Source: Rhizoctonia solani (lineage: Eukaryota > Basidiomycota > Agaricomycetes > Cantharellales > Ceratobasidiaceae). From it: a stretch of DNA of 64,000 bases. Positions 13,080-50,095 of the stretch are shown one piece after another; the stretch's first letter is position 1; each line of letters begins with the position of its first letter. The stretch is from positions 1 through 64,000 of the forward strand of contig NC_057381.1 in NCBI RefSeq assembly GCF_016906535.1. The letters are read 5' to 3'. The notes beneath the pieces were generated by a model that saw only the letters and a list, made by a program, of their open reading frames with translations, made no database searches and was not told the origin of the DNA. The position numbers were made by a program, and so were the translations under genes.

Positions 13080-13868
13080 GTACCCTGAAGTTGTACAAAA
13101 CAGCACCGGGGCTTAGACTTGCTGAGCACACACAAATCAGCTCTAAACACCACGTGTCCTATGTTCCAGCAAGGGGATTGGATATAATTGGCCCCTTTGT
13201 GGATTGCGCATAACCTCAGGTAAGTGTGGTCACCGCGGCTACCCAATTACCAAGACTTACATGGAATATCTTTTTCAGTCAAAATGACATGTATCCTGTG
13301 TGGTGCCCCTTATCCGCTTGACACTGGGATGTTGGTACTGAACCCTTCGACCGACTATCAACAATACTTCGAACCCACCCCTCAATTCCTAGCACCCAAT
13401 ACCGCCTACCTACGAGCAATTGCGTAAACTAGTGCGGTCAATTCATTTATTTGGCATATGTACATGTAGAACCCCCGTCCGCGCATAGGATCCAACAACA
13501 TCAAGGGAAGTACGGGGGTGATATGAATCGAGAGTAAAGTACCGAACTACAAGGTAAGAATGTCATGAGGATGCCAAACTCGAATGTACCGGGGCCAGGG
13601 TGCGGAACAAGAGTGGGTGCGCAACGGGGGTGGGTTCGCAACTCAATCGTACAACGTCCCGAGGCGAAGGTGCGGAACCTGCTCGAAGGTGCGGAACAAG
13701 GGTATGGAACGAGAGAGGGTGCGGAACAACCACCACCAACTCCCGGGCAGAAGGTGCGGAACCGGCCGATGGGTGCGGAACACGAGTGCGGAGCGCAGCA
13801 CCAGGTTGTTCAAGGTGCGGAACACCGGGCGTTGTTCCGGACCTCGGGGGGGGGGGGGGGGCACAGTG
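13080..13868. repeat. Outer left part of the giant palindrome (CpG-rich copy)
   Basis: This 789-bp stretch is the inverted counterpart of 49314 to about 50095, on the far side of the copia insertion. It contains a GTAAGT..CAG intron-like segment (about 13220-13279) and a short open frame to 13427, possibly a host gene remnant. At 13583-13840 lies a field of at least ten GGTGCGGAAC words. It ends in a G-run plus CACAGTG at 13868. Most differences from the right copy are CpG here against TpG or CpA there. Confidence 0.8.
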
Positions 13869-14227
13869 AGAGCGCTCCCGGATTTTTGGGGCCCCAGTAG
13901 AGAAGGGCATTTGCACAGCATCTGACGTCAATTTGGAGGATCAAAAGGAAACAAAATGCATATGTTGATTGGATAGATATGTAAATACGTATATGCCAAA
14001 CAAGAAAATGCCCGTTCTGTAACTCACATATTGGTGACATTATGGCCAGCTACCTGCATTTTGGCCACTAACTGTTTGTAACAGGTATCCCGCATAACTG
14101 AAGCTATGTCCGCGCATTCTCAAGGTGACAAAAAGCTCTTCAAAAGGATAAGCATACACAGAGGCCCTCATTTTCTCATTGCGTAACTATAATACACAGG
14201 TTGCTTACGGCCAATCTGGTGGCACAT

Positions 14228-15359
14228 TCATCGACCTATCAGGGAATGACAAGCGAAGTGTACGGTGTCCACGGTACCCAAGACTAGACTACCTGGAGCC
14301 CTAGCAAGTGTCCTCATTACTCCTTTCCAGCGGCGACGATTCTCGGTCACGGGACGCTTCAAAAGCTCTAGTTGTCCTTGAATGGAACGCAGTTCGCGCT
14401 GAAGTGTTTCTCGTTCTTCTATTATTTCCGCACGCTCTTGCGCCCTAGCCTCCTTTATCTCGAGTCGAAGAGCTTCAATCTCTTTCAGCTGCTCAGATAT
14501 TTTCTTCGACATTTCATCCTCAAGAACTTGACCAGCTGCCGTATCCTTTAACTCTAACTCATCATCTACGATCTCCCGCTGGATTGACATGGGAGTTGCG
14601 ACTCCCGCCAGCATTGGCGCGATGATAGCGCGCGCCTGAGCCTGGCTACCGTATTTTGGGAACGAGGCGACCCGTGCTTTTTTCTTTATGAGGTCGCCAA
14701 AGAATGTATCTGTATTGACTAGTTGCTTATGACGCTCTATTTCCTGGGCAGTTGGGGGCGTAGACCACATGTTTGTTACGATTGTAAGGTTTTGGAGAGA
14801 ATCGGTGCCGCATAACTTTTTGAACATTCGTAAGTTTCTTGCTGCAGTTCCGGTAACTCTTGGCTGGGAAATGCTGTGCAAGAAAATGATCCCAGACAGT
14901 AGTTGTCCCTCCTCGTAGCTGAGCACTTGCGTAAGAAACGGTAACATGAATTTAAATACGGCTCCTTACCCCCCTGTTAGGAAATCAGTAATTCGCTGTA
15001 AAATTTCTGTGTCCTTCACGTTGGTGTCATCGAACCCGGGAGTGTCAATCAGTTGAACTAGATATCCATCTTGCTCATACTCTCCTGCCAGAGTCACATC
15101 TTGGGTGCATGAGAAAACATCATGCCCAACAGTAAGGTTTCCTCCGGATGCGTTATTGACGAACTGCGTATGCTCATCAGTCATATACCTACCAAGTACA
15201 TCTCATACGGAGCGGTACAAGGAGATAACTTACCGTCGTCTTTCCCGCACCTGTGGCACCGAAAATGCTAGCCAAGACAGTTTGGATTAGCTTATGCGCT
15301 GGCAGGTGGAGGTATGAGCTTCGTACTCACGCAACTAGGCGTACTCTTGAGGGATTCAT
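14228..15359 (-). CDS. AIG1-like P-loop GTPase A, left-arm copy
   Basis: Four exons (15331-15359, 15234-15267, 14970-15163, 14228-14918) with GT-AG introns encode 315 residues. The start is ATG at 15359. The Walker A/G1 loop GATGAGKTT is at residues 13-21, interrupted by introns on both sides. G3 DTPGFDD is at 61-67, and a G4-like TNMW follows in exon 4. Residues from about 185 to 270 are strongly charged and probably coiled coil; the end is moderately hydrophobic. It belongs to the fungal AIG1/GIMAP-like G-domain proteins, whose cellular role is not settled. Exon sizes 34 and 194 nt match GTPase B, so the two are paralogues. It is divergent from B, with about 2.9 kb between. Confidence 0.8.
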
Positions 15360-18233
15360 GTTATCGTGTGTGGGTACAGGCGCAGCTGTGATGTGTCAGT
15401 TGAACGATAAGATGTGGTAGGTTAGGCGAGTTTTATACCTGCACTTCTGGCGGTGCTAGTCCAAGTTAAGGTACCTCTTGAGAAACTGCGCCATCATGGT
15501 AATCAAAAACAGACGCTCATCTGTACTCGTGTTATCCCCCATGTCGCCCGATGGTGATGAGCTCGCCAACGTGCCAAAGGGGAGGCGGGCAAAGGGTGGT
15601 ATATGTTACTTGCTCTTTTTCAAGTGTTCAATGTAAGCACATGATTACCGCATACCACTTCTGAAAGCTACCTGATAGGGCGGAGACTGGGATACTCAAT
15701 AATTGAAAACAAACGACCGATGTAGGTGTGTGACTTCGGGGCACAAATCTACCTTGGTTGCAAATCTAGGAGTCAGATAAGATGTATTCTCAGGATAAAA
15801 AGTAGGTGGAATCGAGCTGTGGCTTGCAAATGGCGCAATGGATTGCCATTACATGTCTTTAGATCATTGAATCAATAAATACGATGACACGCAATGGCAA
15901 TTCACGCACCATCTGCTGGCCCCTTGTTTCAATTCCGTAGCTACACCCAATGGTACCCACTAGTTCTTGCTCAATTTTTACGCATCACGTAACGTTATTC
16001 TACGAATCCTTAGCCGACGCATTTTTTTCTCAGTGTTATATAACTCAGAATGTAACAAAAATATTGCTAGCCAGCACTGGGCCTGGAAGCCAACTGTGAT
16101 GCAATTGGTAGTTTTGAAGGGAATGCACGGGTGTTATGAGGGACACTGTGGTGTGACAAGATCTTGAAAATCAGTGTGTCAGTAAAATATATTGTTTTTC
16201 AGTATCATATGGCTTGAAAACTACAATATCAGTGTGCCTTCCTCAGCATGAATCAGACTAAGGAATAATTGATATCTAAAACTAGTATGTATTGACCTTG
16301 ATTTCAGCTCAATTTCTACTTAAACACATGTACTTATTTTCAGTATTTTGACCTTGTACAGTGGGAGACGACGCTATTTTCTTGAGCCCACAATTCCAGC
16401 AACACCCTGCAGGCACATCTATCGGGTGTTTTCAGCTATTGCATCTATGATAGACCTTGTGCCGATCGCTGTTGTCTGGATCCAACAGCGGTTCCTGGCG
16501 ACATATTGTAGTTCCCGATACCGACCGTGCCCGTGTTTCTACAGTAGGAAAAACGAGATCCCAGTTAGGGTGGCTCAGAATTATTGAGAAATCAATTTAA
16601 CAGCACTTTGCTGGCTAACACAAATACTAGACACGATCTAAGCTGGATCAACACCCTCAGTAGCGCTGGGCTAGCCGGGTTGGCGCTCAACCAAAGCCGC
16701 CGGGGTTCTGGAGCGCTCGGGAGCACCCACATGCGGTCCGTAGGCTCGGGGAGCCTCTAGAGCGCCAGAAGGAACTTTGTCATTGCTGACAGACACCTAA
16801 AATGGTGTACTATGTCAGTTGCCTAAGCCGCTCCCGGTGCTCCCGAGCGCTCCCGAGCCCCGGCGGTTTTGGTTGAGCGCCCAGCGGCGAGGTAAACTAA
16901 CAACGTGTTGGCCGAGTGAGAACATATGTATCGAGCCCATCACACATGTTAATTTAGGTCATCTGATACGGGCTGCACCATCGTTCATGCGCTGGGTGTA
17001 CACATGTACATCTGAGCTGTGTAAACACGGTTAAAAGGCTCTGCTCATCCGCAACATTGATCAAGCGTCTATTAATGGGGGCCCAAAGGGCGCTAGAACG
17101 CGCGACCACCTGGCGACCGCGTGTTATTCAAGTACAACGGGAAACCCCGATATCAAACACATTGAACCCCGAAAATACGAAAAATCCGCATGACGTCCAA
17201 ATTTGCCAGAAATTCGCACCTCGATGACCCACAGAAGTGAGTTGAGAACGCGGACTCATGTAAAAGCTGGTCGGATTTTGCGAACACTCCGCATATAACG
17301 CGCAATTCTTTAGGTTCAAAAAATATGAAAATTTGGGCTCCACCGTGAAAAGGAGTACCGTGAAGAAGAAATTGCGGCTCGAGAGGCAGCCTTGTTTGCT
17401 GAGATTGAAAGTGATAGGGGGCCGCGAGCCAATTATATCTAGCTTGAGCACTCAACTCAATAATCCGCGTACTTTAGGGCACTTCACAATGTTCGGCCTT
17501 CGGTTGAGATCTTCGTTCGGGGCCAACCTGGCTCGGAGTGTTCCGTAAGCCCTCCTGAACAGCGTGCGAGCACTTTGGAGGATCGAACTTGATCGTCCAA
17601 AGTGCCAACTCACCTTCATAACTAAATGAGCGCTACGGAGCCTTTAGGATCCCCATATAGTACTGTGTGGGCACCTGCCCTGAACTACCCCATCTCTGCT
17701 GGCTTTCATTTACACACCGATTTCATTCCGTGTCCCCGTGCTAAACGACATGGTTGCGTATCAATGAGTTGAGCCTAGTTTGAGCATAGCGTTGTATGAG
17801 TCTGCCATTGGGGGTGACCTGTGTGTCAATGGCGGTAACAGCTCATCAACACGCTGCAGGCGACAACGAAAAAGGGGTAACTTATATCACCACAGCGCCC
17901 TCTTACTGTGCCGATCTATATCCGAAGGAAGACCTCGTTCCAGCCCATGCGGTAAGCTCGCCGCTCATTTTACGGCACACATGTCCTTCTGCGACAGCTG
18001 AGATTGACAGATCAAGGTCTAGCTGTGGCCTCGAAGGCAAACGTTGTAGAATGAGCCCAATTCGAAGAGACTGACAAGGTCAGCTTGCAGCCCTTTGCCC
18101 ACATACTCTTGCAATAAAGCCTTCGAACCTAGTCGCCATCCTTCATATCCATCTCCTTGCCTCACAGATCTGTTGAGCACTCTGAGTATAGAAGACAATT
18201 CCACGGCAATATTCTTGCATTCAAATCGATTAG
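15360..18233. other. Left-arm intergenic region between the two GTPase genes
   Basis: No convincing gene is present. It holds the MITE at 16682-16881 and an imperfect hairpin at about 17569-17605 (GCACTTTGGA and its complement). The short open frames on both strands have no recognisable motif. The block recurs in mirror image at 39904-42777. Confidence 0.5.
16682..16881. mobile_element. MITE with GGCGCTCAACC termini, left-arm copy
   Basis: This is a 200-bp element with inverted termini of about 45 bp. They start GGCGCTCAACCAAA, continue through CCGCCGGGG, and include GAGCGCTCGGGAGC. The inner part is not coding. I cannot identify a clear target duplication. It shares the word GGGAGCGCTC with the MITE at 8910. 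The mirror copy is at 41256-41455. Confidence 0.7.
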
Positions 18234-19639
18234 ATGGCTGCTGAGTGTCCATCCTCTCATTCGATCTCAACCCAATTTCCACCAACGGTTACAATGATTT
18301 CTGGTCCAGTATGCACCAGTGGAGTTGTGCCAGCTCCAGTGGGACCAAGCATGATGGATATGGATGCCACAGAGACCAGACCAAAGTCCACCTCCCTTCG
18401 CGTAGCGTAAGTGATATGCTTTGCCCACTAATCCTTTGGGATGGATGAATGGTTATTGCGAGCTCATAAATTGACATACTCCCCCCCCCCCCCTTATTTC
18501 AGTATCTTTGGGTCCACCGGAGCTGGAAAGACCACTGTGAGCTTAGCATCTCCTACGCGTGTATCTCAAATCTCATTTTTTCGCAGTTTGTCAACATTGC
18601 TTCAGGATCTAAGCTTCGCGTGGGACATGACCTGATGTCATGTACTCGGGATGTATCGCTCGCTGACACGTACCAATACAAAGGTCATGAAATTCAGCTG
18701 ATCGATACTCCAGGATTCGATGACACCAACCTCCCTGACTCGGAGGTATTGAGGCGTATTGCTGACTTTCTGGCAGAAAGGTAAGTTTCAACCTGCTGTC
18801 TCATTACTACTACACGTATGAAGCACCTTGAGCGTAGTTACGAGAAAGAGGGGCCTCTATCTGGGGCCATATTTTTCCATAGCATTGAGAGTATTAGAGT
18901 GGGAGGAGCCGCGGCAAAGACCTGGCGGATCTTTCTTCAACTATGCGGGGAAGAGGCCTACAAAAACGCGCTATTTGTTACCAATCGCTGGACTGACCCC
19001 CCCTCAGGGGAGCATGTAAGGCGCGAGGCGCAGCTAAAGGATAGTCAATTGTTCGGAGAGGCCATCGGAAAAGGCATCAAAGTAGGGCGATATAGTGCTG
19101 GCGGGACCCAAGACGAGGCTCGTACCCTGATTGCGAGTTTATTTAATGCAAGACGGCTCCCATTCGCAATTCAGCGCGAGATGGTGGACGAGAAACTGCA
19201 ACTCGGCCAAACGGCTGCCGGAAAGGTGGTAGCAGATAACCTGGCGGAACTGAAAGCGGAAAACGAACGGGAGCTAGCAGCTCTGAGAGAGGAATTGGAA
19301 GGATCGAACGTAGAAGACGCGGCGGAAATCAGGCTTGAGGAGGAAAATCTGAGGCGGCAGATCGTGGCACGGGAGGCTGAGTGGAACCAGCTAGTTAAAC
19401 ATAAGGAACACAACCCGGCATCACATCGTATCTTATCTGCACTGTCGGGTAAAAGGAGGGGGGATATAAATAGCCCTAGAGTAACTGAAGCAGGCGCGCG
19501 AGGAGGCAAGGGTTCGGACACTGGACCGCCTGTGACGGCTCGTGTTCAGAACTTAGGTTCCCATTCCCAAATGGTGGTCGTGGAGGTAATTGTTCGCAAC
19601 GGAACATCCGTCGGCAATGCAACTCAGAAGCCCCGATGA
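18234..19639 (+). CDS. AIG1-like P-loop GTPase B, left-arm copy
   Basis: Four exons (18234-18406, 18503-18536, 18587-18780, 18838-19639) encode 400 residues. ATG 18234 is immediately preceded by an in-frame TAG. A Pro/Ser-rich N-terminus of about 57 residues precedes the G domain. G1 GSTGAGKTT is at 61-69, G3 DTPGFDD at 109-115, and a G4-like TNRW follows in exon 4. A long Glu/Leu/Arg-rich coiled coil follows, with a Gly/Arg-rich tail. The G1-to-G3 spacing and the 34- and 194-nt exons equal those of GTPase A. The first intron ends in a C-run of 13, one shorter than in the right arm; being intronic, this leaves the protein unchanged. Confidence 0.82.
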
Positions 19640-21833
19640 TTGCCCTGTGTACTGGAGCAGTTTACAATTTGTTTATGATGTTGCTGAAATGTATTACACT
19701 CTTCAAAATGTGCTTGAAGTAGGGAGATTGCATACCTTGAGAAGCTCTGCACATACCGTCGTGAGAGACAGCTGGCTGATCACAACTAACACAAGACTTT
19801 GGTTGGGATTGTAATTTCTGGGGTATGCATATATAAGCAGTCTACCTCTGAGCTACACCATATACCCCCAAGGTAGCAACTATTTGACCCCATCAATCCA
19901 ACCCCGGGGGGGGGTGAAATCTATAGGGTAAATCAGACCTTAAGGGTTCCAAACACTGGCAAATTCCAGTCTCTGTACTAATTGGAACCCTGCTCCTGAT
20001 GCTTTGGTAGGTGCAAGATCCAACCTCCTATATTGGACCCCCCATTTGACCCTTGTAGAGTCCAACAACAAGGTGTGGTTGCCTTAAGATAACAATGATG
20101 ACCTATGTGCTTGTGCATATTGAATAGTTCATTCTTGATATTCCCTTGTGTGAGGTAACACTTGCTGTTTCTTGCTGATTTGGCACTGAGCCTGCTTGCA
20201 GGAGGTTGCTCAGCATATTTTGCATTTCCTCCTTCTGCTTGTCAGTGATGCTTGTGTAAAGGTCTTCATTGCCTATATGTTTGACAACCCAGTTCATGTA
20301 CACCATGCCTACATATACAAGTGCCTTGCCTGGCATTGACTACCCCATACAGTAGACAGCTGTGGGGCAGAGATTGAGATAAAGACATACCTTTCTGTTT
20401 CCATTAAGAAGACATCTTCAATACAAAACCATGCCATGCAGTGGGATGTGCTGAGTGTAAAGCACTCTGAGCAGAATGCAATTTGAGGGTAAGATGCCAG
20501 GTGTCTAAGTTGAAACAAGACAATGCAGCACCAAGTAGTCAATTAACCCCCTTGCCAATAACATGTGATTCCCCATCAATTGATTTGTTACATTCACTCA
20601 GTTCCAAGTGACACTTCCAGGTCTTGAGCTCCTTTTCTCTATATAATTTCTTGTAATTCCTGGAGTGTCCTCCAGCAAATAGGTAGCTGGGGGTGCTGGA
20701 TATGGGTGGTACTATTGATACTGTGATGCCTTTGTTTCAGAATATGTTTATTGTGTGTTTCAACCACACTGTAAGGTGGGCTGCTTGCTAGTGAGAATGG
20801 ACACTCACACTTGTACTACTACAGGGGATGGTCAAGCTACATCAATGAACTATCTAGAGGCAACAAAGAGCACCTTAAGGCCACATCTACTAGGCTATTT
20901 ACAACAGTAAAGGCTTAAGGCCTAAACTATTGTGAATACCAAGTTATTAAAGGGGGCTTGAGGTCCCAATATTCTCTGAAGATAGCAACTATCCCAAATT
21001 GTGGGGTGAAACTAAGACTTTTTGTTTTTGGGATGCCTTGTCCAGAATTCAATTTTTAGTAAACACTAAAGATCAGTATTCCATGTGGTGCTGCACAGTC
21101 TAAGATTTTGTCAAAGTACAGAATGCAATTTTGGTGGTTCTAGTACCAAAAAACAGACTTAACATATGCTTTGGTTGCTGTGGGTAATGTGTGGGTTCTA
21201 TATGCAGTACAAGAGGGGAAGCCTAGTGGTGTGGGCCAGGCCACCCAAAACTGCAACCATCCAGATCAAAGGCTTGGGGTGGCAGAGAATTGCACATGGA
21301 CAAGTATGCTACAAATAGATTTGTGATAATATGAGTAATACAAAAAGAAATAAAAATGTGAAGAAAAACCATGAAATATGCAGCAAAACATAAAGGGATG
21401 GTGGGAGGGTGCTGAAAAATGCAAGTACAGTCTGGGTCCCTGTGCTTGGTACACCATTCCAAGATTGCAGTATGGAATGGTGCTGGCTGACTTACACAAT
21501 TGCAATCTCTCCCCTTGGTCAAGTACATTACAAATCAAATCAAAATATACACTGCAATTATGCAAAAAACATAACAAAATTGTCATAAACAGAGGAAAAT
21601 ATAACTATCTGTAGTTGAACCAGCTTGACTACTAAGCCATAGAGCCCTATTATTCCTCTGCTGACAACCCATGATTACACCTGCTGCCCCCCAAATTTGG
21701 GCTTGGGGCAGCATGCAACCACTTGTACTGGTCTGTTTGGCCATGACCAGAACAGTAGCCCTCCTAAGCCATTGCACTAGCTCTTGGGGCTTGAGTTAAA
21801 CTTACTCTGCACTGATTGCTAATTATACATTGT
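19640..21833. other. Left-arm AT-rich gene-free stretch
   Basis: No coding region is supported. A C/G run lies at about 19903-19915. At about 20755-20900 a sequence resembling the end of the chromovirus LTR family (ACTGTAAGGTGGG, GCTAGTGAG) suggests an old LTR fragment. The rest looks like decayed repeats with few CpG. The mirror copy is 36298-38496. Confidence 0.45.
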
Positions 21834-21838
21834 ATCTG

Positions 21839-22399
21839 TGTCGTGACCCAACTGTAAGGTTGGTCACACGCTAGTGGGTCAGGCGCTTGGGGCCGTAATA
21901 CTACAAACAAAGCTATACGACTACTAACTAAGGCTTTACTAAGGTTACGTAAGGTAACTGTCCTACTGACTATCTACTGGCAAGGGGGGCTTAGCCCTGG
22001 AGGTGTGGTGAGTGCAATAAAGGGGTAAGCAACTGAACTACTTAAGGGCCGGCTACTCAGCTGGCTGGGGGTCCTCCTCAATGGTATGAGACAAGGTAAA
22101 ATCGACTTGGGGTCTCCAAGCAATTTTCCTCTTGTATTTATACACAAGAGAACTATCTACAGGTGGTCAAAGCTTGTGAGAAAGGAAGTACAGATATGAA
22201 AAAGGAAGCGTGCTGCGGGCTGCGTAGAAGCGTGGATTTCTCCTAAGCGCCCTTGGCACGGCATCTCGGCGCGGCAGCTCGGCATAATAAGCGCCGAGAT
22301 CACGTGATCAGAAAAACAAAGATATAGAGTCCGTAAAAAAAACTAAAAATAACAGAAAAATCGTGCGAATCCAATGGTATATGTAAGGAGGTTATAACA
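21839..22399 (-). repeat. 3' LTR of chromovirus 1
   Basis: 561 bp, TG..CA bounded. It lies at the downstream end of the minus-strand element. Compared with the 5' LTR it has five CpG-to-TpG/CpA changes and keeps one CpG that the other has lost. Confidence 0.95.
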
Positions 22400-22410
22400 T
22401 TGCCCCCCCC

Positions 22411-25400
22411 TTAAAGGCTCTTGGCGGAGTCACGAGCCTTTTTCATTCGCAACTTGTTGAAGCGTTGGATCTCCTCTTGACTGTTTTCCAAGAGCTCCTC
22501 AGGTTCCCAGGAATTGTCTTCCGGACCATAACCCTTCCATTTGATTAGATAGAACCATTTCCCTTGTTGCCGTTTGGAATCAATGATCTGTTCCACTTCG
22601 TATTCTTCTTCCCCTTCTATTGTTTCAGGAGGGGGTCGTTCTGGAAATGGTTGACTTGGGGATTCATGACTTTTAGAAAGCAACCCTACGTAGAACACAT
22701 CATGGATTTTCAGCGTATCCGGGAGTTTTAATCGATAGGCGTGGCTGGAGATTTTTTCCGTGATCTCAAATGGTCCCAGTCGCTTGGGATCCAACTTGTT
22801 GGAATTTGTCCTGAGTTCCACGTTCTTCCCATCAAGCCAGACTTTTTCCCCTACAAGATACTCCGGTATTGTTCCCTGGTTTCTGGTCATCCGTTCCTTG
22901 CTTAACCTGAGGGCTGACTTGGCTTCTTTCCATTCGCGGGCTAGTGTGTTTGCTACCTCATCTGCCTCTGGTACGTTGGCTGGGACATTGGAGGGATTCA
23001 TTACTGGATTCCTTCCATAGACTAGTTCAAAGGGGGTCTTTCCTGTAGACGCGTGTTTGGCATTGTTATACGCGTATTCTGCCAAAGGGAGCCAGGTGGC
23101 CCAGTCTGAATGGTCGGCTGCTACGTATGACCTTAGGTAGAACTCAATGAACTGGTTGACCCTTTCCGTCTGTCCGTCGGATTCTGGGTGGTAAGCGGAG
23201 GAAAAGGATGGTTTGATCCCCAGCCTTTGATAAAGTGCCCTGAGAAACTTGCCGGTGAACGTGGTTCCTTGGTCCGAGACGGTTCTGATTGGCAAACCAT
23301 GGAGTTTCCAGACGTGCTTTACAAATAAATCCGCCAATCCCTTGGACGTGACCTTCTTGGACGTGGGAATGAAGTGACCAAACTTGGAGAATGAGTCGAT
23401 AACCACAAGGATAGCATCGTGACCCTGGGACTTGGGAAACCCGGTGATGAAGTCGTACAATATGGTATGGAATGGGTAAGGGGGAACTTCCAAGGGTTTT
23501 AGGGCAATCACTGGGGCATGCGCACGTTGGTTGGCTTGACAAACTGGACAGCATTCAACCCATTCTTTTGCAGAAGACTTCATTCCCGGCCACCAGTAGT
23601 TCCTGCTGATGAGTTCAAGCGTCCTTTGTTGGCCTGGGTGACCTGCCAGGGGGGAGTCATGGAATTCCCTCAATAGTCGCTCTTTCAGAGGTTCTGAGTC
23701 CGGAACTACCAGTTTTCCGCGGTACCATAGCAAATCTTCTTCCCAATTGTAGTCCCTGTAGGCCTTTTGGATGGACGGAGGTGCAATATCCGCATCTTCC
23801 GTTAGGAATTGGATGATTGGCTTGATCGAGGGATCTTCTTTCAGTTTGGAACGAATTTCTGTGACGATTTCTAGTTCCTCTTCTGACGTGTTTGCAAAGA
23901 CCTCTGCTGGTAGCATTACTTCTGGTTCCTGGGGGGTGTCCACGTAATCAGACCGTCTGGACAGGGCGTCCAGTTTCCCTGACTGTTTTCCTGGGCAATA
24001 ATGGATTTCAAAATTAAAGTCGCTCAGGAATACGCGCCATCTGGCGTGCCGCCGGTTGAATGTTCTTGCCTGCATCCAGTACTCCAGGTTTCTATGATCC
24101 GTGAAAACCTGAATGGGTTTGTCCGTTGCTTCTAGAAATATCCGCCATTCTTCCAATGCCTTGATTATTGCCAGGAGCTCTTTATCATGAGTGTCGTAGT
24201 TGGCTTCTGCTCCTGAGAATGACTTAGACATGTAAGCTACTGGGTGTAAGCGGTTATCTTCTCCTCTTTGACTAAGGATTGCCCCCATAGCCACTCCTGA
24301 TGCATCGGTTTCCAGGTAGTAGGGCAGATCCGGGTTGGAGTGAATAAGGACAGGTGACCAGGTGACAAGGGATTTCAACTCTTGGAACGCTTCTTCCTCA
24401 AGGTTTCCCCACGACCAGGGGGTTTCCTTTTTGGTAAGGTTGTGCAGGGGGCGTGCTACTGAACTGAAATTGGGAATGAAGCGGCGGAGGTAATTGACAA
24501 ACCCGAGGAATGCCTGGACCTGTTTAACTGTCTTAGGGGTAGGCCATGACGTGACCGCATCAATCTTCTTTTGATCCATGGAAAAACCTGACGGGGAGAT
24601 GACGATACCCAGATAATCCACTGTGGTGACATGGAAGTGGCACTTGGAGAGTTTACAGAATAATTGATTCTTCATCAGGCGTGATAAGACCTCCCTGACG
24701 TGAGTTGGGTGGTCCTTGGGGTCCTCTGAGAAAATCAAGATGTCGTCCAAATAAATAACCACTGTAACGTCAATGAGGTCTCGGAACAGGTCATTCATAA
24801 AGTGTTGGAATGCGGCAGGTGCGTTGGTAAGTCCGAATGGCATAACTAAGTACTCGAATAGGCCATATTTGGTTCTGAAGGCCGTCTTCCACTCATCTCC
24901 TTCCTTAATCCTGACGTTGTTATAACCCCACCAAAGGTCTAGCTTGGTAAAGATCTTGGCATGTCTGAGTTTGGCCATGAGGTCGTCCTGCCTTGGTAAG
25001 GGGTATACGTTCTTATGGGTTACGTCATTCAGCTTCCGGTAGTCAACAACTAATCTAAGGGATCCATCGGCCTTTTTGACAAACATCACTGGAGCGCCGG
25101 CAGAGGAGGTACTAGGGCGGATTTTGCCCGTGGCCAGTTCCTCATCAATATGCTGCTTCAGCGCTTTAGACTCCGCATCTGTCATACCGTATATGGGACC
25201 GGGAGATAGTTTAGCATCCGGGACAAGATCTATGGCAATGTCATATTCCCTATGTGGGGGAAGCACCTTGAATTCTTCTTTGCCAAAGACCTTGGCAAAT
25301 TCATGGTATTGTTCCGGAAGATCCGCTAGGGGGTTTGAGTCTGCTTCCTCCTCAGAGGCAATCTGCACCTGTTCCGGGAACGTGATTGATCCCTGTTGCC

Positions 25401-27515: not shown

Positions 27516-27529
27516 CAAGTCAATTTTAC
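27516..27529 (-). promoter_or_regulatory. Self-primer binding site of chromovirus 1
   Basis: It lies 2 nt inside the 5' LTR. On the sense strand it reads GTAAAATTGACTTG, complementary to the predicted RNA 5' end in the LTR. It does not begin TGG, so it does not resemble a tRNA 3'-end priming site. Confidence 0.7.
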
Positions 27530-27531
27530 AA

Positions 27532-28092: not shown

Positions 28093-28097
28093 ATCTG

Positions 28098-29968: not shown

Positions 29969-29977
29969 CTTGATAAC

Positions 29978-34417: not shown

Positions 34418-34426
34418 GTTATCAAG

Positions 34427-39903: not shown

Positions 39904-42777
39904 CTAATCGATTTGAATGCAAGAATATTGCCGTGGAATTGTCTTCTATACTCAGAGTGCTCAACAGATCTGTGAGGCAAGGAGATGGATATGAAGGATG
40001 GCGACTAGGTTCGAAGGCTTTATTGCAAGAGTATGTGGGCAAAGGGCTGCAAGCTGACCTTGTCAGTCTCTTCGAATTGGGCTCATTCTACAACGTTTGC
40101 CTTCGAGGCCACAGCTAGACCTTGATCTGTCAATCTCAGCTGTCGCAGAAGGACATGTGTGCCGTAAAATGAGCGGCGAGCTTACCGCATGGGCTGGAAC
40201 GAGGTCTTCCTTCGGATATAGATCGGCACAGTAAGAGGGCGCTGTGGTGATATAAGTTACCCCTTTTTCGTTGTCGCCTGCAGCGTGTTGATGAGCTGTT
40301 ACCGCCATTGACACACAGGTCACCCCCAATGGCAGACTCATACAACGCTATGCTCAAACTAGGCTCAACTCATTGATACGCAACCATGTCGTTTAGCACG
40401 GGGACACGGAATGAAATCGGTGTGTAAATGAAAGCCAGCAGAGATGGGGTAGTTCAGGGCAGGTGCCCACACAGTACTATATGGGGATCCTAAAGGCTCC
40501 GTAGCGCTCATTTAGTTATGAAGGTGAGTTGGCACTTTGGACGATCAAGTTCGATCCTCCAAAGTGCTCGCACGCTGTTCAGGAGGGCTTACGGAACACT
40601 CCGAGCCAGGTTGGCCCCGAACGAAGATCTCAACCGAAGGCCGAACATTGTGAAGTGCCCTAAAGTACGCGGATTATTGAGTTGAGTGCTCAAGCTAGAT
40701 ATAATTGGCTCGCGGCCCCCTATCACTTTCAATCTCAGCAAACAAGGCTGCCTCTCGAGCCGCAATTTCTTCTTCACGGTACTCCTTTTCACGGTGGAGC
40801 CCAAATTTTCATATTTTTTGAACCTAAAGAATTGCGCGTTATATGCGGAGTGTTCGCAAAATCCGACCAGCTTTTACATGAGTCCGCGTTCTCAACTCAC
40901 TTCTGTGGGTCATCGAGGTGCGAATTTCTGGCAAATTTGGACGTCATGCGGATTTTTCGTATTTTCGGGGTTCAATGTGTTTGATATCGGGGTTTCCCGT
41001 TGTACTTGAATAACACGCGGTCGCCAGGTGGTCGCGCGTTCTAGCGCCCTTTGGGCCCCCATTAATAGACGCTTGATCAATGTTGCGGATGAGCAGAGCC
41101 TTTTAACCGTGTTTACACAGCTCAGATGTACATGTGTACACCCAGCGCATGAACGATGGTGCAGCCCGTATCAGATGACCTAAATTAACATGTGTGATGG
41201 GCTCGATACATATGTTCTCACTCGGCCAACACGTTGTTAGTTTACCTCGCCGCTGGGCGCTCAACCAAAACCGCCGGGGCTCGGGAGCGCTCGGGAGCAC
41301 CGGGAGCGGCTTAGGCAACTGACATAGTACACCATTTTAGGTGTCTGTCAGCAATGACAAAGTTCCTTCTGGCGCTCTAGAGGCTCCCCGAGCCTACGGA
41401 CCGCATGTGGGTGCTCCCGAGCGCTCCAGAACCCCGGCGGCTTTGGTTGAGCGCCAACCCGGCTAGCCCAGCGCTACTGAGGGTGTTGATCCAGCTTAGA
41501 TCGTGTCTAGTATTTGTGTTAGCCAGCAAAGTGCTGTTAAATTGATTTCTCAATAATTCTGAGCCACCCTAACTGGGATCTCGTTTTTCCTACTGTAGAA
41601 ACACGGGCACGGTCGGTATCGGGAACTACAATATGTCGCCAGGAACCGCTGTTGGATCCAGACAACAGCGATCGGCACAAGGTCTATCATAGATGCAATA
41701 GCTGAAAACACCCGATAGATGTGCCTGCAGGGTGTTGCTGGAATTGTGGGCTCAAGAAAATAGCGTCGTCTCCCACTGTACAAGGTCAAAATACTGAAAA
41801 TAAGTACATGTGTTTAAGTAGAAATTGAGCTGAAATCAAGGTCAATACATACTAGTTTTAGATATCAATTATTCCTTAGTCTGATTCATGCTGAGGAAGG
41901 CACACTGATATTGTAGTTTTCAAGCCATATGATACTGAAAAACAATATATTTTACTGACACACTGATTTTCAAGATCTTGTCACACCACAGTGTCCCTCA
42001 TAACACCCGTGCATTCCCTTCAAAACTACCAATTGCATCACAGTTGGCTTCCAGGCCCAGTGCTGGCTAGCAATATTTTTGTTACATTCTGAGTTATATA
42101 ACACTGAGAAAAAAATGCGTCGGCTAAGGATTCGTAGAATAACGTTACGTGATGCGTAAAAATTGAGCAAGAACTAGTGGGTACCATTGGGTGTAGCTAC
42201 GGAATTGAAACAAGGGGCCAGCAGATGGTGCGTGAATTGCCATTGCGTGTCATCGTATTTATTGATTCAATGATCTAAAGACATGTAATGGCAATCCATT
42301 GCGCCATTTGCAAGCCACAGCTCGATTCCACCTACTTTTTATCCTGAGAATACATCTTATCTGACTCCTAGATTTGCAACCAAGGTAGATTTGTGCCCCG
42401 AAGTCACACACCTACATCGGTCGTTTGTTTTCAATTATTGAGTATCCCAGTCTCCGCCCTATCAGGTAGCTTTCAGAAGTGGTATGCGGTAATCATGTGC
42501 TTACATTGAACACTTGAAAAAGAGCAAGTAACATATACCACCCTTTGCCCGCCTCCCCTTTGGCACGTTGGCGAGCTCATCACCATCGGGCGACATGGGG
42601 GATAACACGAGTACAGATGAGCGTCTGTTTTTGATTACCATGATGGCGCAGTTTCTCAAGAGGTACCTTAACTTGGACTAGCACCGCCAGAAGTGCAGGT
42701 ATAAAACTCGCCTAACCTACCACATCTTATCGTTCAACTGACACATCACAGCTGCGCCTGTACCCACACACGATAAC
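39904..42777. other. Right-arm intergenic region between the GTPase genes
   Basis: Mirror of 15360-18233, containing the MITE at 41256-41455 and the hairpin at about 40532-40568. No convincing gene is present. Confidence 0.5.
41256..41455. mobile_element. MITE with GGCGCTCAACC termini, right-arm copy
   Basis: Mirror of 16682-16881, with the same 200-bp length and inverted termini. Confidence 0.7.
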
Positions 42778-43909
42778 ATGAATCCCTCAAGAGTACGCCT
42801 AGTTGCGTGAGTACGAAGCTCATACCTCCACCTGCCAGCGCATAAGCTAATCCAAACTGTCTTGGCTAGCATTTTCGGTGCCACAGGTGCGGGAAAGACG
42901 ACGGTAAGTTATCTCCTTGTACCGCTCCGTATGAGATGTACTTGGTAGGTATATGACTGATGAGCATACGCAGTTCGTCAATAACGCATCCGGAGGAAAC
43001 CTTACTGTTGGGCATGATGTTTTCTCATGCACCCAAGATGTGACTCTGGCAGGAGAGTATGAGCAAGATGGATATCTAGTTCAACTGATTGACACTCCCG
43101 GGTTCGATGACACCAACGTGAAGGACACAGAAATTTTACAGCGAATTACTGATTTCCTAACAGGGGGGTAAGGAGCCGTATTTAAATTCATGTTACCGTT
43201 TCTTACGCAAGTGCTCAGCTACGAGGAGGGACAACTACTGTCTGGGATCATTTTCTTGCACAGCATTTCCCAGCCAAGAGTTACCGGAACTGCAGCAAGA
43301 AACTTACGAATGTTCAAAAAGTTATGCGGCACCGATTCTCTCCAAAACCTTACAATCGTAACAAACATGTGGTCTACGCCCCCAACTGCCCAGGAAATAG
43401 AGCGTCATAAGCAACTAGTCAATACAGATACATTCTTTGGCGACCTCATAAAGAAAAAAGCACGGGTCGCCTCGTTCCCAAAATACGGTAGCCAGGCTCA
43501 GGCGCGCGCTATCATCGCGCCAATGCTGGCGGGAGTCGCAACTCCCATGTCAATCCAGCGGGAGATCGTAGATGATGAGTTAGAGTTAAAGGATACGGCA
43601 GCTGGTCAAGTTCTTGAGGATGAAATGTCGAAGAAAATATCTGAGCAGCTGAAAGAGATTGAAGCTCTTCGACTCGAGATAAAGGAGGCTAGGGCGCAAG
43701 AGCGTGCGGAAATAATAGAAGAACGAGAAACACTTCAGCGCGAACTGCGTTCCATTCAAGGACAACTAGAGCTTTTGAAGCGTCCCGTGACCGAGAATCG
43801 TCGCCGCTGGAAAGGAGTAATGAGGACACTTGCTAGGGCTCCAGGTAGTCTAGTCTTGGGTACCGTGGACACCGTACACTTCGCTTGTCATTCCCTGATA
43901 GGTCGATGA
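42778..43909 (+). CDS. AIG1-like P-loop GTPase A, right-arm copy
   Basis: Mirror of 14228-15359. Exons are 42778-42806, 42870-42903, 42974-43167 and 43219-43909, encoding 315 residues. The small second exon carries the whole phosphate-binding loop IFGATGAGKTT. The third intron uses the acceptor TGCTCAG ending at 43218, because this keeps the frame into YEEGQLLSG as in GTPase B. The start ATG follows a stretch with no competing in-frame start that I can see. The function is unproven. Confidence 0.8.
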
Positions 43910-44268
43910 ATGTGCCACCAGATTGGCCGTAAGCAACCTGTGTATTATAGTTACGCAATGAGAAAATGAGGGCCTCTGTGTATGCTTATCCTTTTGAAGA
44001 GCTTTTTGTCACCTTGAGAATGCGCGGACATAGCTTCAGTTATGCGGGATACCTGTTACAAACAGTTAGTGGCCAAAATGCAGGTAGCTGGCCATAATGT
44101 CACCAATATGTGAGTTACAGAACGGGCATTTTCTTGTTTGGCATATACGTATTTACATATCTATCCAATCAACATATGCATTTTGTTTCCTTTTGATCCT
44201 CCAAATTGACGTCAGATGCTGTGCAAATGCCCTTCTCTACTGGGGCCCCAAAAATCCGGGAGCGCTCT

Positions 44269-44523
44269 TGTCAGATGTCTAACACCTGCACGGGACGTCT
44301 CAGTACGGTGGGAGACGAGCGTGCATATATACGGATGTATGTAGTGTACATGAATAGAGACATACCTGCACGGGACGTCTCAGTACGGTGGGAGACGAGC
44401 GTGCAGGAACAAGGTAGTCGACATAAGAATATATAGATCCCCTGAATGGAATAGGGGTAAAGAGCCTCGACCGTCGAGGACCACACGATCACGTGACGGC
44501 GCTGGCGCGCCGCACATCTAACA
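44269..44523 (-). repeat. 3' LTR of the copia element (CpG-rich)
   Basis: 255 bp, TG..CA. It contains a 41-bp motif twice, 80 bp apart (44285-44325 and 44365-44405), with inverted GTCTC/GAGAC words. It keeps all ten CpG sites that the other LTR has lost. Confidence 0.93.
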
Positions 44524-44677
44524 CTCCCCCTGGTCCGAGACGTACATAGAGAGAAAGAGAGAGAGAAAGGATAAAACAATAAAGCGGAAAAAAATTTAAA
44601 AAAAGGAATCAGAAAGTTCAATCATAAGCATATAGAATCATAATAAAAGTAACATCACGGAGCGTGAGTCGAGTTGT

Positions 44678-47600
44678 TTAGCATATACCCGCGCGAGTAC
44701 GACAGTGATGGAAAACATCCTTCGAAGTCGGTTTGGTAAGGAAGTCGGCTAGTTGGTCTCGCGAGGGAATATGGTATATTTTGTATTCCCCTTGAGCCAC
44801 CTGGTCCCGTACGTAGTGGTATCGAATCGCAATGTGTTTGGCCATCTGATGAGACTCTGGGTTCAAAGTGATAGCTATCGCGGCCTGATTGTCACAGAAA
44901 AGCGGAGTCGGGGGTGGTTGTTCTTCCCCTGATAATCCGTCCAACTCCCCCAGCCAACTTTGAACCCAGTATCCCTCCCTGCATGCCATAGACATTGCAA
45001 CAAACTCAGCTTCCATAGTTGATTGGGCAACAACACTCTGGAGTTTGCTGCTCCAACTGATAAGTCCCCCGCATAGAGTTACCGCCCACCCAGTGGTCGA
45101 TTTGTAAGTATCTGGACACATTCCCCAGTCCGCGTCCAAGTATATAGAGAGTTCTTTGGATCCAGTGCGTGAGTATGATACCCCAAGGGTTGAAGTGTGT
45201 CGTAGATACCAAAGAATACCAAGCAAGGCTTCCCAGTGGGCTGGTCCTGGATTAGCACTGAAGCGCAATAGTGTGCAGACAGCATATGCAACATTGGGTC
45301 GTGTTTGACAGCATATAAATAGAAGAGCACCAACCAGAGCCAGGTAAGGGAACTTCTTCATGCGTGTTTTCTCCTCTTCTGTTGACAGGCATTGAGACTT
45401 TGAAAACTTTTTGCAAGGAGGAAGTGGGAGCAATAGTGGGGGAAGGTTGTAGACACCATACTGTCGAGCCAGGTCTTTGATGTAGCGGTTCTGTGTGATT
45501 AAAGCCGTTCCTGCTTTAGGGTCTTGTGTAATTTCTAGCCCTAAAATCTCTTTTGCGCGGCCTAAGTTCTTTAGTTCATATTTTGCGTTAAGTTCAGCGC
45601 AGAACAAGTCCCAAACTGCGTTGTTGGAAGTGGCACCGGTGAGGTTGTCAACATGCACAGCTAGAATAATCAGACCAGTATTGTTGCGTTGTTGCATAAA
45701 GACGCAGTTATTGGAGTTGAAACAGACAAACCCTAGCTCTATAAGTGCCAAAGATAAACACTTGTACCAGACTTGACCTGCTTGCTTAAGTCCATAGAGT
45801 GACTTCACTAGTTTGAGGTACAAGCCCTGGTGCTCTGGGGGAGCAATCCATCCGTCCGGTTGCTCCATGTATATTTCTTCCTCAAGAAGTCCGTTGAGGA
45901 AAGCCGCTGTGAAATCAGCTGCAAATAATGTGAGGCCGTCGCGGACAGATATAGCCACTACTAATTGTAGGGAGGCGGAGCAGGCTACTGGGGAAAACGT
46001 TTTGTTGTAGTCCCGACCAAGACGTTGAGCACATCCTTTGATTACTAGGCAAGCTTTGTACGTGCCGTCAACTTTTATTGCAAAGACAAGCATGCCTTTC
46101 AGAGCTTTGCTGCCGGGTGGGAGGTCTGGGCTGTAGGTAAATGTGCCCTTGCTCAGAAGGGTGTTGAACTCCTTTGCAATAGCGGCCATCCACAAGTGTT
46201 TATCAGGACCTTGAATTGCCTTGTTATATGAGTGTGGGACTGTTACGGGCTTGGGCCTTGCGGTAAATGCGGCTACGCGTGGGGCATAGTTGGGATTTGG
46301 TCTACGTTCTTGAGTACCTTGACAAGGTTCTTGTTGGGGCGGCTGGACACCTGGTTCTTCCTCTAGCCTTTCCTCTTCATCATGTAGGCCTTCTATGTCT
46401 CCTTGCTCCCCCTGATCTTGACTGTTCAAACCAGGAGCATCAAAGTTGTTGTCAAGATCAATAACTCAGGGCGTAGGAGAGGAAACACTCAAGCTGGATT
46501 CTGAGCTGACGTCATCTGTAGGTAGTATACCAAATGCCTGCCAAATGTTGGAATCCAAGGGCGGTGGTACGGGTGGGAGGGGGCTTTGGTTGCAGTTTTG
46601 TTCAACACATACCACATGGCGGGAGTTGCAAAATCTCAGAGTTTTTGGGTCCCAACATCTGTAGCCAGACCCCGTATATCCCGTGAAGACACATTTTGCA
46701 GCTGTTGGGCCAGTTTTGGTACGCTGAGATTCCAGGAGTATAAGCACATAAGCATCACATCCAAAAGAACGGAGATGAGATACGTCTGGGGTGCGGCCAG
46801 TCCATTTTGTGTATGGGATGGACCCCCCAAGAGCTGAGTTTGGACAAAAGTTGAGGGTGTATGCAGCAAATAAGACTGCTTTGCCCCAGAAGCGGGGGGC
46901 TAGGCCCAATTCTTGTAGCACGGCTCATACAATACCCATCACATCCCAATTCTTGCATTCAATACGTCCGTTTTGTTTGGGAGTATAGGGTGACAACGTT
47001 TGATTCACAGTTCCAGTATTGCGTAGAAAACATTCAAAAGTATCTGACATAAACTCCCCCCCTCTGTCCAACATTAAACACTTTATCCTCCACCCTGAGG
47101 ACCGCTCTGCCCAAGCCTTAAACTCCTTGTACCGCTCCAACGCTTCCAACTTCTTCTTGAGCAAGTACGCGTGAAAATAACCAGTACAATCATTGCAGAA
47201 CAAGATGAAGTACCTGTACCCCCCTATGGCTTCAATATCCATAGGGCCGCATATGTCAGTATGCACTAGGTCAAGTGGTACGTTGGAACGGGCGGTTTGT
47301 GGGGAGAAGGGGAGCTTGTGGCCTTTTGCCAATAGGCAGGGCTCGCAAGGATTGGATTGGTGGAGGCGGTTGGACATGGAGAAGTTGCTCACCAACTTCT
47401 TCTTGGCCAGAGCATGTAAGTCATTTCCATTCAGGTGGCCAAACCATGCATGGGCAACGTGAGGATCAAGTGCCGTGGTTGATTTTCCAGCTAGGAAAGC
47501 AGTGAGCGCAAGAACAGGAGTGCGGAGCGTTGGGTGCAGGGCGGTGCATAAGCTGATTGCATAGAGTCCTCCAATGGACTCATTTGCCTTAGCAATAAAA

Positions 47601-49006
47601 ACAATCCCCTTTTTGTTCCAAACTTTGCATTGGTTCCCACGGAATACGGCGTGGAGAGCTGGTTTGGAGTTGCAGGTGAGTTGTCTTATGGAAATGAGGG
47701 TGCATGCAAGGTCCAGGACGTGTAGAGTATGACAAAATATGATGCATTTGCGTTCTCCAGACAATCCATTGATCCAGACTTGGAAGTCCCCTTCTCCTAT
47801 AGCCATAATGAACCTATTGTCACCCAGGTATACTTGTTTAGGCTTGGTTAAGGTCCAATAATTAATGAAAAAGGCCTGTTCAGCTGCGCAATGGCGAGAC
47901 GCGCCTGAGTTGATAGCTGCGTAATTTGAAGGCACTTTCCCGCCGCCTGCCTTGAGTATCAGTCCCCCAGAGATGTCTTGTGTGACGCAATCCAAGCAGA
48001 CATTGTTGGATAGGACTGATGTGGACACACAAAGGATTGTCACTTTTGCGTGTGTGTTGTACCCCAAGGAATTGTTGTTTGTAGACGTAGAACAAGTATC
48101 TAGAGCAGCGAGTCTTGCTTGGATTTGTGCAAGTTGGGCTGCAAGGTCAGACGTTCCTTTGTTGGGCTTGTTTCCTCCAGCCCAAGACTCCTTGCGCTTG
48201 CAAGCCTGCTCCTGTTGTTGGGTCCTCTCCTCTGGCAATAGTGTTGGGCAGTCCCAAGCGTAGTGTCCTGGGTTCTTGCATACATAACAATTGCAGGAAG
48301 ACAAGGGGTTGGGGTTGGTTGTGGCTTGTTTGGCGGTGAAAGTCTCTTTGTTTGTACACACAGCTTGTAGTTGCTCCCAAGTAGTAGATAGCAACTGGTA
48401 CCAGTGTTCAGGGTTTTTGGCGTTCATACCCTCCTGGAGGGTCAAGATCTGTGCCTGCAGAGATAGGGGCATTGCTAAGGCTAGCCGAGCGCAAGTTTTG
48501 GCATTGGACAGGGGTTGTCCGGCGCGCTTCAGGTCAAGAACAAGTCCGCTGAACTTTGCAAGAAAATTGCTAAGAGGGATTGATCCGTTGTTGGAAAACC
48601 TCAGTGTAGCAAGTTTTGTTTGAGTGAGTGTAACGCCCTGAGCGGATTGATTGGCAAAGCACACAACAAGGGCATCCCAACACTTTTTTGGTAAGGTACT
48701 GCAGTCAAGGATGTTGGCGTGGATAGGGTCAACTAAGTAAGCAAGCCAAGCTATTGCAACGTTGCAGTCCTCCTCCCAGGTTGTATATGCCGAGAGAATC
48801 ATGTACTTGGAGGGGTCTGCCCCCTTTTCAATCTTCTCAAGATTGTTGGCAGAATATTTGGGTGGAGGAGAGGAAGAGGGGTTAGCCGGGTCAAAGAACT
48901 TCCACACCTTGTGGGACTTGAGCTCAAATTTGGCGGTTGTTTGCCAAGTATGCCAATTCAAGCCAGAGGCATCAAGGACAACAAATTTAGCTGAGCTTTT
49001 GGACAT
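44678..49006 (-). pseudogene. Copia Gag-Pol polyprotein with two TGA codons
   Basis: One frame of 1443 codons starts at ATG 49006. In order it holds a gag domain, the knuckle CYVCKNPGHYAWDC, protease, integrase (HAWFGHLN..CEPC, then VHTDICGP and DRGGEF), reverse transcriptase (FLNGLLEEEIYMEQP) and RNase H (YLDADWG, ending in KHIAIRYHYVR and DQLADFLTKP). TGA codons interrupt it at 46925-46927 (GIV*A) and 46466-46468 (PTP*V), both explicable as former CGA. Catalytic residues are also lost. The protease reads NSGAS instead of DSGAS (residue 366, codon 47909-47911), and the RT reads VDN instead of VDD (residue 1121, codon 45644-45646). All fit CpG transitions, so the copy should be inactive. Confidence 0.92.
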
Positions 49007-49037
49007 ATTTCTGGGTACGTTCTTAGTTGCGCCGGGC

Positions 49038-49053
49038 GCTGGGGCTCATAACC
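49038..49053 (-). promoter_or_regulatory. Half-tRNA primer-binding site of the copia element
   Basis: The sense strand directly after the 5' LTR reads GGTTATGAGCCCCAGC. Its complement ends GGGCTCATAACC, the anticodon stem-loop of initiator tRNA-Met. This is the site type used by Drosophila copia and yeast Ty5, where a 5' half of the tRNA primes. Confidence 0.75.
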
Positions 49054-49308
49054 TGTCAGATGTCTAACACCTGCACAGGACGTCTCAGTACGGTGGGAGA
49101 CAAGCGTGCATATATACAGATGTATGTAGTGTACATGAATAGAGACATACCTGCACGGGACGTCTCAGTACGGTGGGAGACAAGCGTGCAGGAACAAGGT
49201 AGTCAACACAAGAATATATAGATCCTCTGAATGGAATAGGGGTAAAGAGCCTTGACCGTCAAGGACCACATGATCACGTGATGGCGCTGGCGCACCGCAC
49301 ATCTAACA
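49054..49308 (-). repeat. 5' LTR of the copia element (CpG-depleted)
   Basis: 255 bp. Against the 3' LTR it shows ten CpG-to-TpG/CpA changes plus one other C-to-T; one site has C where the 3' LTR has T. The depletion continues into the flank at 49314-50095. Confidence 0.93.
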
Positions 49309-49313
49309 GCTCT

Positions 49314-50095
49314 CACTGTGCCCCCCCCCCAAGGTCTGGAACAACGCCTGGTGTTCCGCACCTTGAACAACCTGGTGCTGCACTCTGCACCTGTGTTCTG
49401 CACCCATTGGCCGGTTCTGCACCTTCTGCCCGGGAGTTGGTGGTGGTTGTTCCGCACCCTCTCTTGTTCCATACCCTTGTTCTGCACCTTTGAGCAGGTT
49501 CCGCATCTTTGCCTTGGGACATTGTACAATTGAGTTGCAAACCCACCCCCGTTGCGCACCCACTCTTGTCCCGCACCCTGGCCCCAGTACATTCAAGTTT
49601 GGCATCCCCATGACATTCTTACCTTGTAGTTTGGTACTTTACTCTCAATTCATATCACCCCTGTACTTCCCTTGATGTTGTTGGATCCTATGCGCAGACA
49701 GGGGTTCTACATGTACATATGCCAAATAAATGAATTGACCGCACTAGTTTATGCAATTGCTTGTAGGTAGGCGGTATTGGGTGCTAGGAATTGAGGGGTG
49801 GGTTCAAAGTATTGTTGATAGTTGGTTGAAGGGTTCAGTACCAACATCCCAGTGTCAAGCGGATAAGGGGCACCACACAGGATACATGTCATTTTGACTG
49901 AAAAAGATATTCCATGTAAGTCTTGGTAATTGGGTAGCCGCGGTGACCACACTTACCTGAGGTTATGCGCAATCCACAAAGGGGCCAATTATATCCAATC
50001 CCCTTGCTGGAACATAGGACACATGGTGTTTAGAGCTGATTTGTGTGTGCTCAGCAAGTCTAAGCCCCGGTGCTGTTTTGTACAACTTCAGGGTA
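49314..50095. repeat. Outer right part of the giant palindrome (CpG-decayed copy)
   Basis: Inverted counterpart of 13080-13868. In the 300-bp GTGCGGAAC field, about 19 of some 23 differences are CpG on the left against TpG or CpA here. The same bias runs through the rest, for example the short open frame at 49749-49952. Homology stops at about 50095, where the flanks differ. Confidence 0.85.

Follow-up and report, generated by a model that had tools for sequence, protein, structure and literature searches.

The left end of contig C12 (NCBI RefSeq NC_057381.1; 1,953,953 bp) of Rhizoctonia solani strain XN, which we take to be AG1-IA, carries a palindrome of about 37 kb (13081-50095), in which two 12-kb inner arms face each other around an 84-bp loop. 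The window that we analysed comprises the first 64,000 nucleotides of this contig, one of 16 that make up a genome of 40,703,773 bp. We propose, with a probability of roughly 0.6, that the palindrome exists in the genome and arose close to the chromosome end by inverted duplication, with a palindromic transposon-like repeat as its seed. If so, it would document, in nature and at base resolution, how a chromosome end was duplicated in inverted orientation at a palindrome, broke and was re-capped; this pathway is otherwise known chiefly from tumours and from experiments in yeast and bacteria.

Anatomy of the palindrome and the repeat at its axis

Base-by-base alignment of the inner arms (13869-21838 plus 28093-32155 against 32240-44268) gave 0 substitutions and a single 1-base gap over 12,033 left-arm bases, a count in which a 5-bp target duplication was entered twice. 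Position x pairs with 64395-x throughout 28093-32155 with 0 mismatches, and the gap fell in the alignment of 13869-21838 with the reverse complement of 36298-44268, which likewise contained 0 substitutions. An exact inverted match over 12 kb cannot be chance. Within the loop, 31 of the 42 mirrored positions differ. These results bear out a first-pass annotation of the window, which had described a giant palindrome with this pairing, this loop and two shifts, of exactly 6259 bp and of 1 bp; the larger shift corresponds to a 6254-bp Ty3-type element plus its 5-bp target duplication. The same annotation held all mirrored reading frames compared to be identical; identity throughout is true of the inner arms but not of the outer ones (13081-13855 and 49321-50095), where 34 substitutions in 775 bp leave 95.6% identity. 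Beyond the arms, no pair linking 1-13080 with 50096-64000 was found among the 60 best self-matches or among the self-matches of more than 400 columns, and 50096-50814 aligned with 11473-13080 at chance level only.

Each arm carries a retrotransposon that is missing from the other. The left-arm insertion encodes reverse transcriptase, RNase H, integrase and a chromodomain, all in one frame, as expected of a Ty3/Gypsy chromovirus, and at its mirror site the right arm has a single ATCTG, i.e., an empty site. The right-arm insertion has the Copia-type reverse transcriptase, long terminal repeats (LTRs) and 5-bp target duplication of a Ty1/Copia element, with an interrupted frame and a weak integrase match (E 0.0043); the left arm has a single GCTCT at the corresponding site, which is thus empty as well. 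Because each arm has a private insertion and an empty mirror site, the two arms are distinct DNA, each with its own history, and Copia must have inserted after the duplication. The arms might instead be the two nuclear haplotypes of a heterokaryon that the assembly fused head-on at the palindromic element, Ty3 belonging to one haplotype and Copia to the other. XN is described as multinucleate, with 2.56 heterozygous single-nucleotide polymorphisms per kb (PMC7884421), which would suit this explanation. At that genome-wide mean, however, about 31 differences would be expected per 12,033 bp and 0 were seen, and the flanks beyond both arms are unmatched, whereas those of alleles would match. We therefore regard collapsed haplotypes as very improbable.

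The axis lies within a dispersed repeat of 1574 bp, composed of two 745-bp inverted repeats and the 84-bp loop. This element, which the first-pass annotation overlooked, is present in near-full-length form at no fewer than 30 places in the genome (96 matches listed, most copies matching on both strands), a lower bound obtained with 40 of 55 candidates scored; the axis copy is 99.3% identical to the copy at 50815-52388. The idea that the axis repeat is unique sequence was rejected on account of these places. We inspected the flanks at 21 of the 30, comparing up to 400 bases per side. All 21 copies start with TACACTGAGCAGC, finish with GCTGCTCAGTGTA and have TA at both ends. Foldback and Tc1-mariner-like non-autonomous elements possess long terminal inverted repeats, a short loop and TA at both ends. 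Our repeat resembles them in these three respects, in a comparison of structure alone, and its dispersed copies with conserved TA ends (21/21) are as expected of a Foldback TA-target DNA transposon.

Mirrored flanks were found at one of the 21 copies, that at the palindrome axis (identity 1.00); the flanks of the other 20 were not mirrored, their identity of 0.19-0.32 being at chance level. The giant palindrome thus stems from an event at a single copy of the element and has the axis of that copy as its centre. The possibility that a large palindrome surrounds every copy of the element was rejected, as flanks were mirrored at 1/21 only. The two inverted repeats within one copy were at least 98.6% alike in 16 of 21 copies; relative to the axis copy, 16 of the 20 others were 90.4-96.1% identical and 4 were 97.5-99.3% identical. 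To judge from these values, the inverted repeats of most copies seem to have been equalised, or born equal. The loop was the same at 84/84 bases in the two neighbouring copies compared (50815 and 93817).

At the outer end of the left arm, a subtelomere that bears a telomere and is unrelated to the outer flank of the other arm is joined to the arm, the arrangement expected of telomere capture. The 26 bp that precede the junction may be read as a repair scar, since they are a near-copy of sequence from the arm itself. An exact pattern derived from 13055-13080 and 13834-13868 was found at 2 places in 40.7 Mb, both of them here, and a reversed control gave 0. No long homology crosses the junction at 13080, the longest being a 19-bp stretch of the near-copy. 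The right-arm counterpart of the source sequence has lost CpG sites. The presence of this arm-derived near-copy at 13080/13081 points to the left arm as the derived one.

Divergence of the arms and a proposed origin

Most of the divergence between the outer arms involves CpG sites: 30 of 34 differences are sites that the left arm retains and the right arm has lost (47 versus 17 CpG). None of the 319 CpG sites of the inner arms was lost. Such losses may reflect methylation-type decay; in the XN genome, heterozygous polymorphisms are reported to be transition-rich and repeat-induced point mutation not to be prevalent (PMC7884421). Non-CpG differences numbered 0/12,033 in the inner arms, 4/775 in the outer arms, 2/259 between the Copia LTRs and 0/561 between the Ty3 LTRs, whose six differences were all of the CpG type. 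Compared with the inner arms, the outer arms gave a Fisher p of 0.00001 and the Copia LTRs one of 0.0004. The boundary of decay lies inside the Copia element: 10 CpG sites are lost from its outer LTR and none of them from its inner LTR.

We argue from the contrast between the inner arms and both the outer arms and the Copia LTRs that the inner arms have probably been re-equalised. The earlier suggestion that gene conversion keeps the arms alike is thus supported for the inner 12 kb by the non-CpG differences, though not proven. A very young duplication, in which the arms are identical without any conversion, is a possible but less probable explanation: the Ty3 LTR differences are CpG-type only and CpG loss looks regional, yet Copia postdates the duplication and non-CpG differences have nevertheless appeared between its LTRs and in the outer arms, against none in the inner arms. 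Arm-to-arm conversion is known from Y-chromosome palindromes (PMC6790999), which share with the present one their long and near-identical arms, whereas the R. solani case is known from one genome and from its sequence alone. Provided that the arms are real and undergo conversion, the insertion of Copia serves as an internal clock that divides converted from unconverted sequence.

From the anatomy, the repeat family, the empty sites, the flanks, the junction near-copy and the divergence pattern seen in the sequence, we infer the following order of events, including a dicentric intermediate and conversion. The element, with its 745-bp inverted repeats and 84-bp loop, would already have been present in a transposon-rich region beside unique sequence. 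After a break or a stalled fork, a strand would have folded back on the inverted repeats, or sister copies would have recombined in U-turn fashion, so that a mirrored second copy of the flanking DNA was made from there outward and the loop stayed single. The resulting dicentric or broken molecule would have broken about 12.8 kb from the axis (the later Ty3 excluded) and been healed by joining the subtelomere and telomere (1-13080) at 13080/13081. Copia would then have inserted into the right arm and Ty3 into the left. Finally, conversion between the arms would probably have made the inner 12 kb alike again, and the outer 775 bp, isolated by Copia, would have drifted, chiefly by CpG loss.

With its axis at a pre-existing inverted repeat and a single-copy spacer, the palindrome has the layout of a fold-back inverted duplication. 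The same product could have arisen by crossover between the element's inverted repeats on sister chromatids, i.e., by non-allelic homologous recombination, rather than by intrastrand fold-back and hairpin replication. Identical inverted repeats of 745 bp are ample for recombination, and such a crossover has been proposed for the isodicentric chromosome 17 of Zymoseptoria tritici (PMC3681731); the loop stays single in both cases, so that sequence cannot separate the two routes. We hold the crossover to be the less probable of them, and a tentative alternative.

The steps that we propose for the inverted duplication have precedents. In yeast, fold-back at inverted repeats, a hairpin cap, a dicentric and repeat-mediated telomere capture have been demonstrated (PMC10622511), and in Escherichia coli an inverted duplication centred on a palindrome has been described (PMC3315005). 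The yeast duplications resemble the present one in their inverted-repeat axis and in the stabilisation of a broken dicentric by telomere capture, but they are experimental and involve short natural inverted repeats (PMC10622511); the R. solani duplication is natural, has inverted repeats of 745 bp and received its insertions later. The first-pass annotation had rightly taken the host for a fungus and called the structure unusual for one; Z. tritici chromosome 14 nevertheless provides a fungal precedent, with a large palindrome at 500-550 kb (Croll et al. 2013, PMC3681731). Both are large natural palindromes in plant-pathogenic fungi, with transposons and proposed bridge cycles, a breakage-fusion-bridge origin with inverted-repeat crossover having been put forward for the new chromosome 17 of Z. 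tritici (PMC3681731). In Z. tritici, however, Copia remnants flank a palindrome located inside an accessory chromosome (PMC3681731), whereas in R. solani a palindromic repeat forms the axis near a chromosome end. What sets the R. solani case apart is the position of the dispersed palindromic element, which lies at the axis of one structure and at the edges of the adjoining one. Among the titles listed by our literature searches on R. solani assemblies and centromeres, fungal bridge cycles, fold-back and hairpins, and large palindromes, also at the chromosome ends of basidiomycetes, none concerned this locus, and the strings 'palindrom' and 'centromer' have 0 occurrences in the main text of the XN genome paper (PMC7884421). 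As the likely culprit element is named, the places of further such events in Rhizoctonia genomes can be predicted.

An adjoining inverted repeat and the reliability of the assembly

A second inverted repeat (50814-75069 versus 79935-95391), also missed in the first-pass annotation together with the right-arm Copia insertion, although structure, place and host had been recognised, adjoins the first. It was analysed on contig sequence up to 106 kb. Its outer edges coincide, to within one base, with the elements at 50815-52388 and 93817-95390. The main arms (64552-73552 versus 83055-92068) differ by 2 substitutions and 23 gaps. Bases are absent from the left arm in 16 of these gaps (64599-73064) and from the right arm in the other 7, six of which fall within 73493-73523 and the seventh in a C run; the 16 left-arm deletions are probably residual long-read errors in the deposited assembly. 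The outer portions, 50814-54133 and 92069-95391, are 98.3% identical, with 45 mismatches, most of them in the loop of the element, because the loops share direction while the arms are mirrored; 52389-54133 alone has 1 substitution relative to its mirror. Insertions interrupt both arms (10.4 kb on the left, 54134-64551; 1.6 kb on the right, 81450-83054). The 4.9-kb spacer has on either side a copy of a 1.5-kb repeat, the two copies being inverted and 93.6% identical; the repeat looks LTR-like from its ends, and a third copy is found at 118606-120157.

In the 50815 element, the outer inverted repeat is nearer the axis element (4 differences) than the inner one is (7), and the inner one is nearer the 93817 copy (2 differences), a weak hint of sequence exchange between the two large structures. 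A broader reading, which we find doubtful, is that the dispersed elements are ready-made fragile sites, that at least two successive fold-back cycles here left tandem large inverted repeats, and that conversion keeps both the 745-bp and the 12-kb arms in step.

Several points weigh against the inverted duplication that we propose. The palindrome is known from the deposited assembly sequence alone, and that assembly was built from PacBio reads with a mean of 11.5 kb by three assemblers, a contig-comparison merge and Pilon (PMC7884421). Five XN scaffolds (400 kb) lie outside the 16-contig genome analysed. The gaps in the second repeat indicate that the consensus in repeats is imperfect, so that the identity of the first palindrome's arms could be partly technical. 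The pre-duplication state was not seen, as no other copy of the arm showed it, and the junction pattern allowed 0 mismatches, so that looser copies elsewhere would escape. Five of the 21 element copies have inverted repeats less than 98.6% alike, in one case only 90.5%, and for some copies another copy with 98-99.9% identity exists (best pair 99.87%); equalised element arms are therefore not universal. Pooling the Copia, Ty3 and 54797/61018 LTRs weakens the test of the inner arms to p = 0.009. Lastly, the CpG-type differences of the Copia LTRs are without exception (10/10) losses in the outer one, and part of the contrast between inner and outer arms may thus be regional rather than due to conversion.

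In spite of these points, the palindrome is probably real in the genome. The fold-over of the assembly that the first-pass annotation had offered as an alternative is, in its simple form, unlikely given the private insertions, the different flanks and the telomeres at both scaffold ends. A missed sequencing adapter, for example, can give rise to a single-molecule fold-over. This explanation was rejected, since the insertions in the two arms differ and the loop is part of a dispersed repeat. The main rival is a mis-join, in which two separate loci, or two contigs with the palindromic element at their ends, would have been linked head-on through that element, the arms then being a dispersed duplication and not a palindrome. 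The axis repeat is indeed dispersed, the reads averaged 11.5 kb and went through merged assemblers, five scaffolds were left unplaced, and the neighbouring repeat probably contains residual indels. The published assembly has 41,104,060 bp, with 400,287 bp unplaced (PMC7884421), and because these scaffolds lie outside the genome analysed, some probability must be left to a mis-join through the dispersed element. Nevertheless, the arms can be told apart by marks at a distance of 4.1 kb from the axis on each side, and reads of about 8.3 kb are long enough to resolve the question. TTAGG repeats were detected at 32/32 contig ends, i.e., there is a telomere on both ends of all 16 scaffolds, and the continuations of mis-joined loci would have to come from the unplaced 1% or from a swap at another copy of the element. 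In addition, the junction near-copy at 13055-13080 derives from the arm itself. We thus judge a mis-join unlikely.

Arm genes, other element copies and chromosome ends

The coordinates of the features of the window are collected in Table 1.

Table 1. Features of the first 64,000 nucleotides of contig C12
Feature	Position	Strand	Remarks
Telomere (CCTAA)n, TTAGG type	1..80	.	13 overlapping three-unit TTAGG matches within 3-77
Subtelomere	82..13080	.	parts recurring near other contig ends (82-1289, 1488-2992, 5440-10723)
Putative junction scar	13055..13080	+	26-bp near-copy of 13834-13868, 2 mismatches, shorter G run
Left outer arm	13081..13868	+	13081-13855 aligned with 49321-50095, 95.6%
Left arm, distal identical part	13869..21838	+	
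GTPase-like gene exon, left copy	14228..14965	-	mirrors 43172-43909
Second GTPase-like gene exon, left copy	18785..19639	+	mirrors 38497-39351
Ty3/Gypsy chromovirus-type retrotransposon, left arm only	21839..28092	-	LTRs 98.9%, target duplication ATCTG
Left arm, axis-proximal identical part	28093..32155	+	contains central element's left inverted repeat
Central palindromic TA-ended element	31411..32984	.	two 745-bp inverted repeats, 0 differences
84-bp loop of the element	32156..32239	+	same sequence in copies at contig 50815 and 93817
Right arm, axis-proximal identical part	32240..36302	-	
Right arm, distal identical part	36303..44268	-	
Second GTPase-like gene exon, right copy	38497..39351	-	mirrors 18785-19639
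GTPase-like gene exon, right copy	43172..43909	+	mirrors 14228-14965
Copia-type retrotransposon, right arm only	44269..49308	-	LTRs ~95%, target duplication GCTCT (44264-44268, 49309-49313)
Right outer arm	49309..50095	-	within 49321-50095, 30/47 CpG sites lost vs left
Second inverted repeat, window part	50814..64000	.	whole: contig 50814-75069 vs 79935-95391
Palindromic element copy	50815..52388	.	second inverted repeat's outer edge, to within one base

Each arm contains two GTPase-like genes. A protein search matched an arm protein to '50S ribosome-binding GTPase [Rhizoctonia solani]', and searches with the two arm genes returned 2 proteins each at E 0.001, one being from C12; judged by these searches, both genes appear to be lineage-restricted. 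Scans for Rfam families and tRNAs found no match in the window.

On several contigs most of the listed element copies are found at one internal site (C1, 648-728 kb; C2, 970-1019 kb; C3, 1595-1655 kb), with the same clustering on C11 (1225-1249 kb), C13 (842-866 kb) and C15 (833-886 kb); C3 has further copies at 226 and 3181 kb. These six internal clusters are candidate centromeres. The clustering and the two GTPase-like genes per arm could be taken to mean that the palindrome is functional and under selection, as a centromere-type inverted repeat or as a doubled GTPase-like gene pair. As 20 of the 21 inspected element copies have no mirrored flanks, we give this explanation hardly any credence. 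In C11:1225349-1249088 and C13:841823-865606, three element copies occur with mirrored spacing, and the one pair compared is 99.87% identical; perhaps the two chromosomes have an inverted segment in common.

The subtelomeric place given to the palindrome in the first-pass annotation was confirmed by the telomere and by the recurrence of much of the left 13 kb near other contig ends. Among the matches listed, those of 82-1289 lie close to many contig ends and those of 1488-2992 and of 5440-10723 close to several, with orientation to the telomere kept; 2989-5059 was repeated at an internal place on C8 and 5442-10701 also inside C12, and none of the matches listed covered 11473-13080. A minisatellite with an 83-bp period occupies 82-1077 and has matches near many contig ends. 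Subtelomere-type sequence, oriented like the left end, is also present inside C12 at 106-118 kb, perhaps a former chromosome end, and the left end may therefore have been extended before. At the right ends of C7 and C10, serial matches link repeats about 89 kb apart (C7:2198243 and 2287570; C10:2017338 and 2106521), and these ends perhaps have in common a terminal block of about 90 kb or more.

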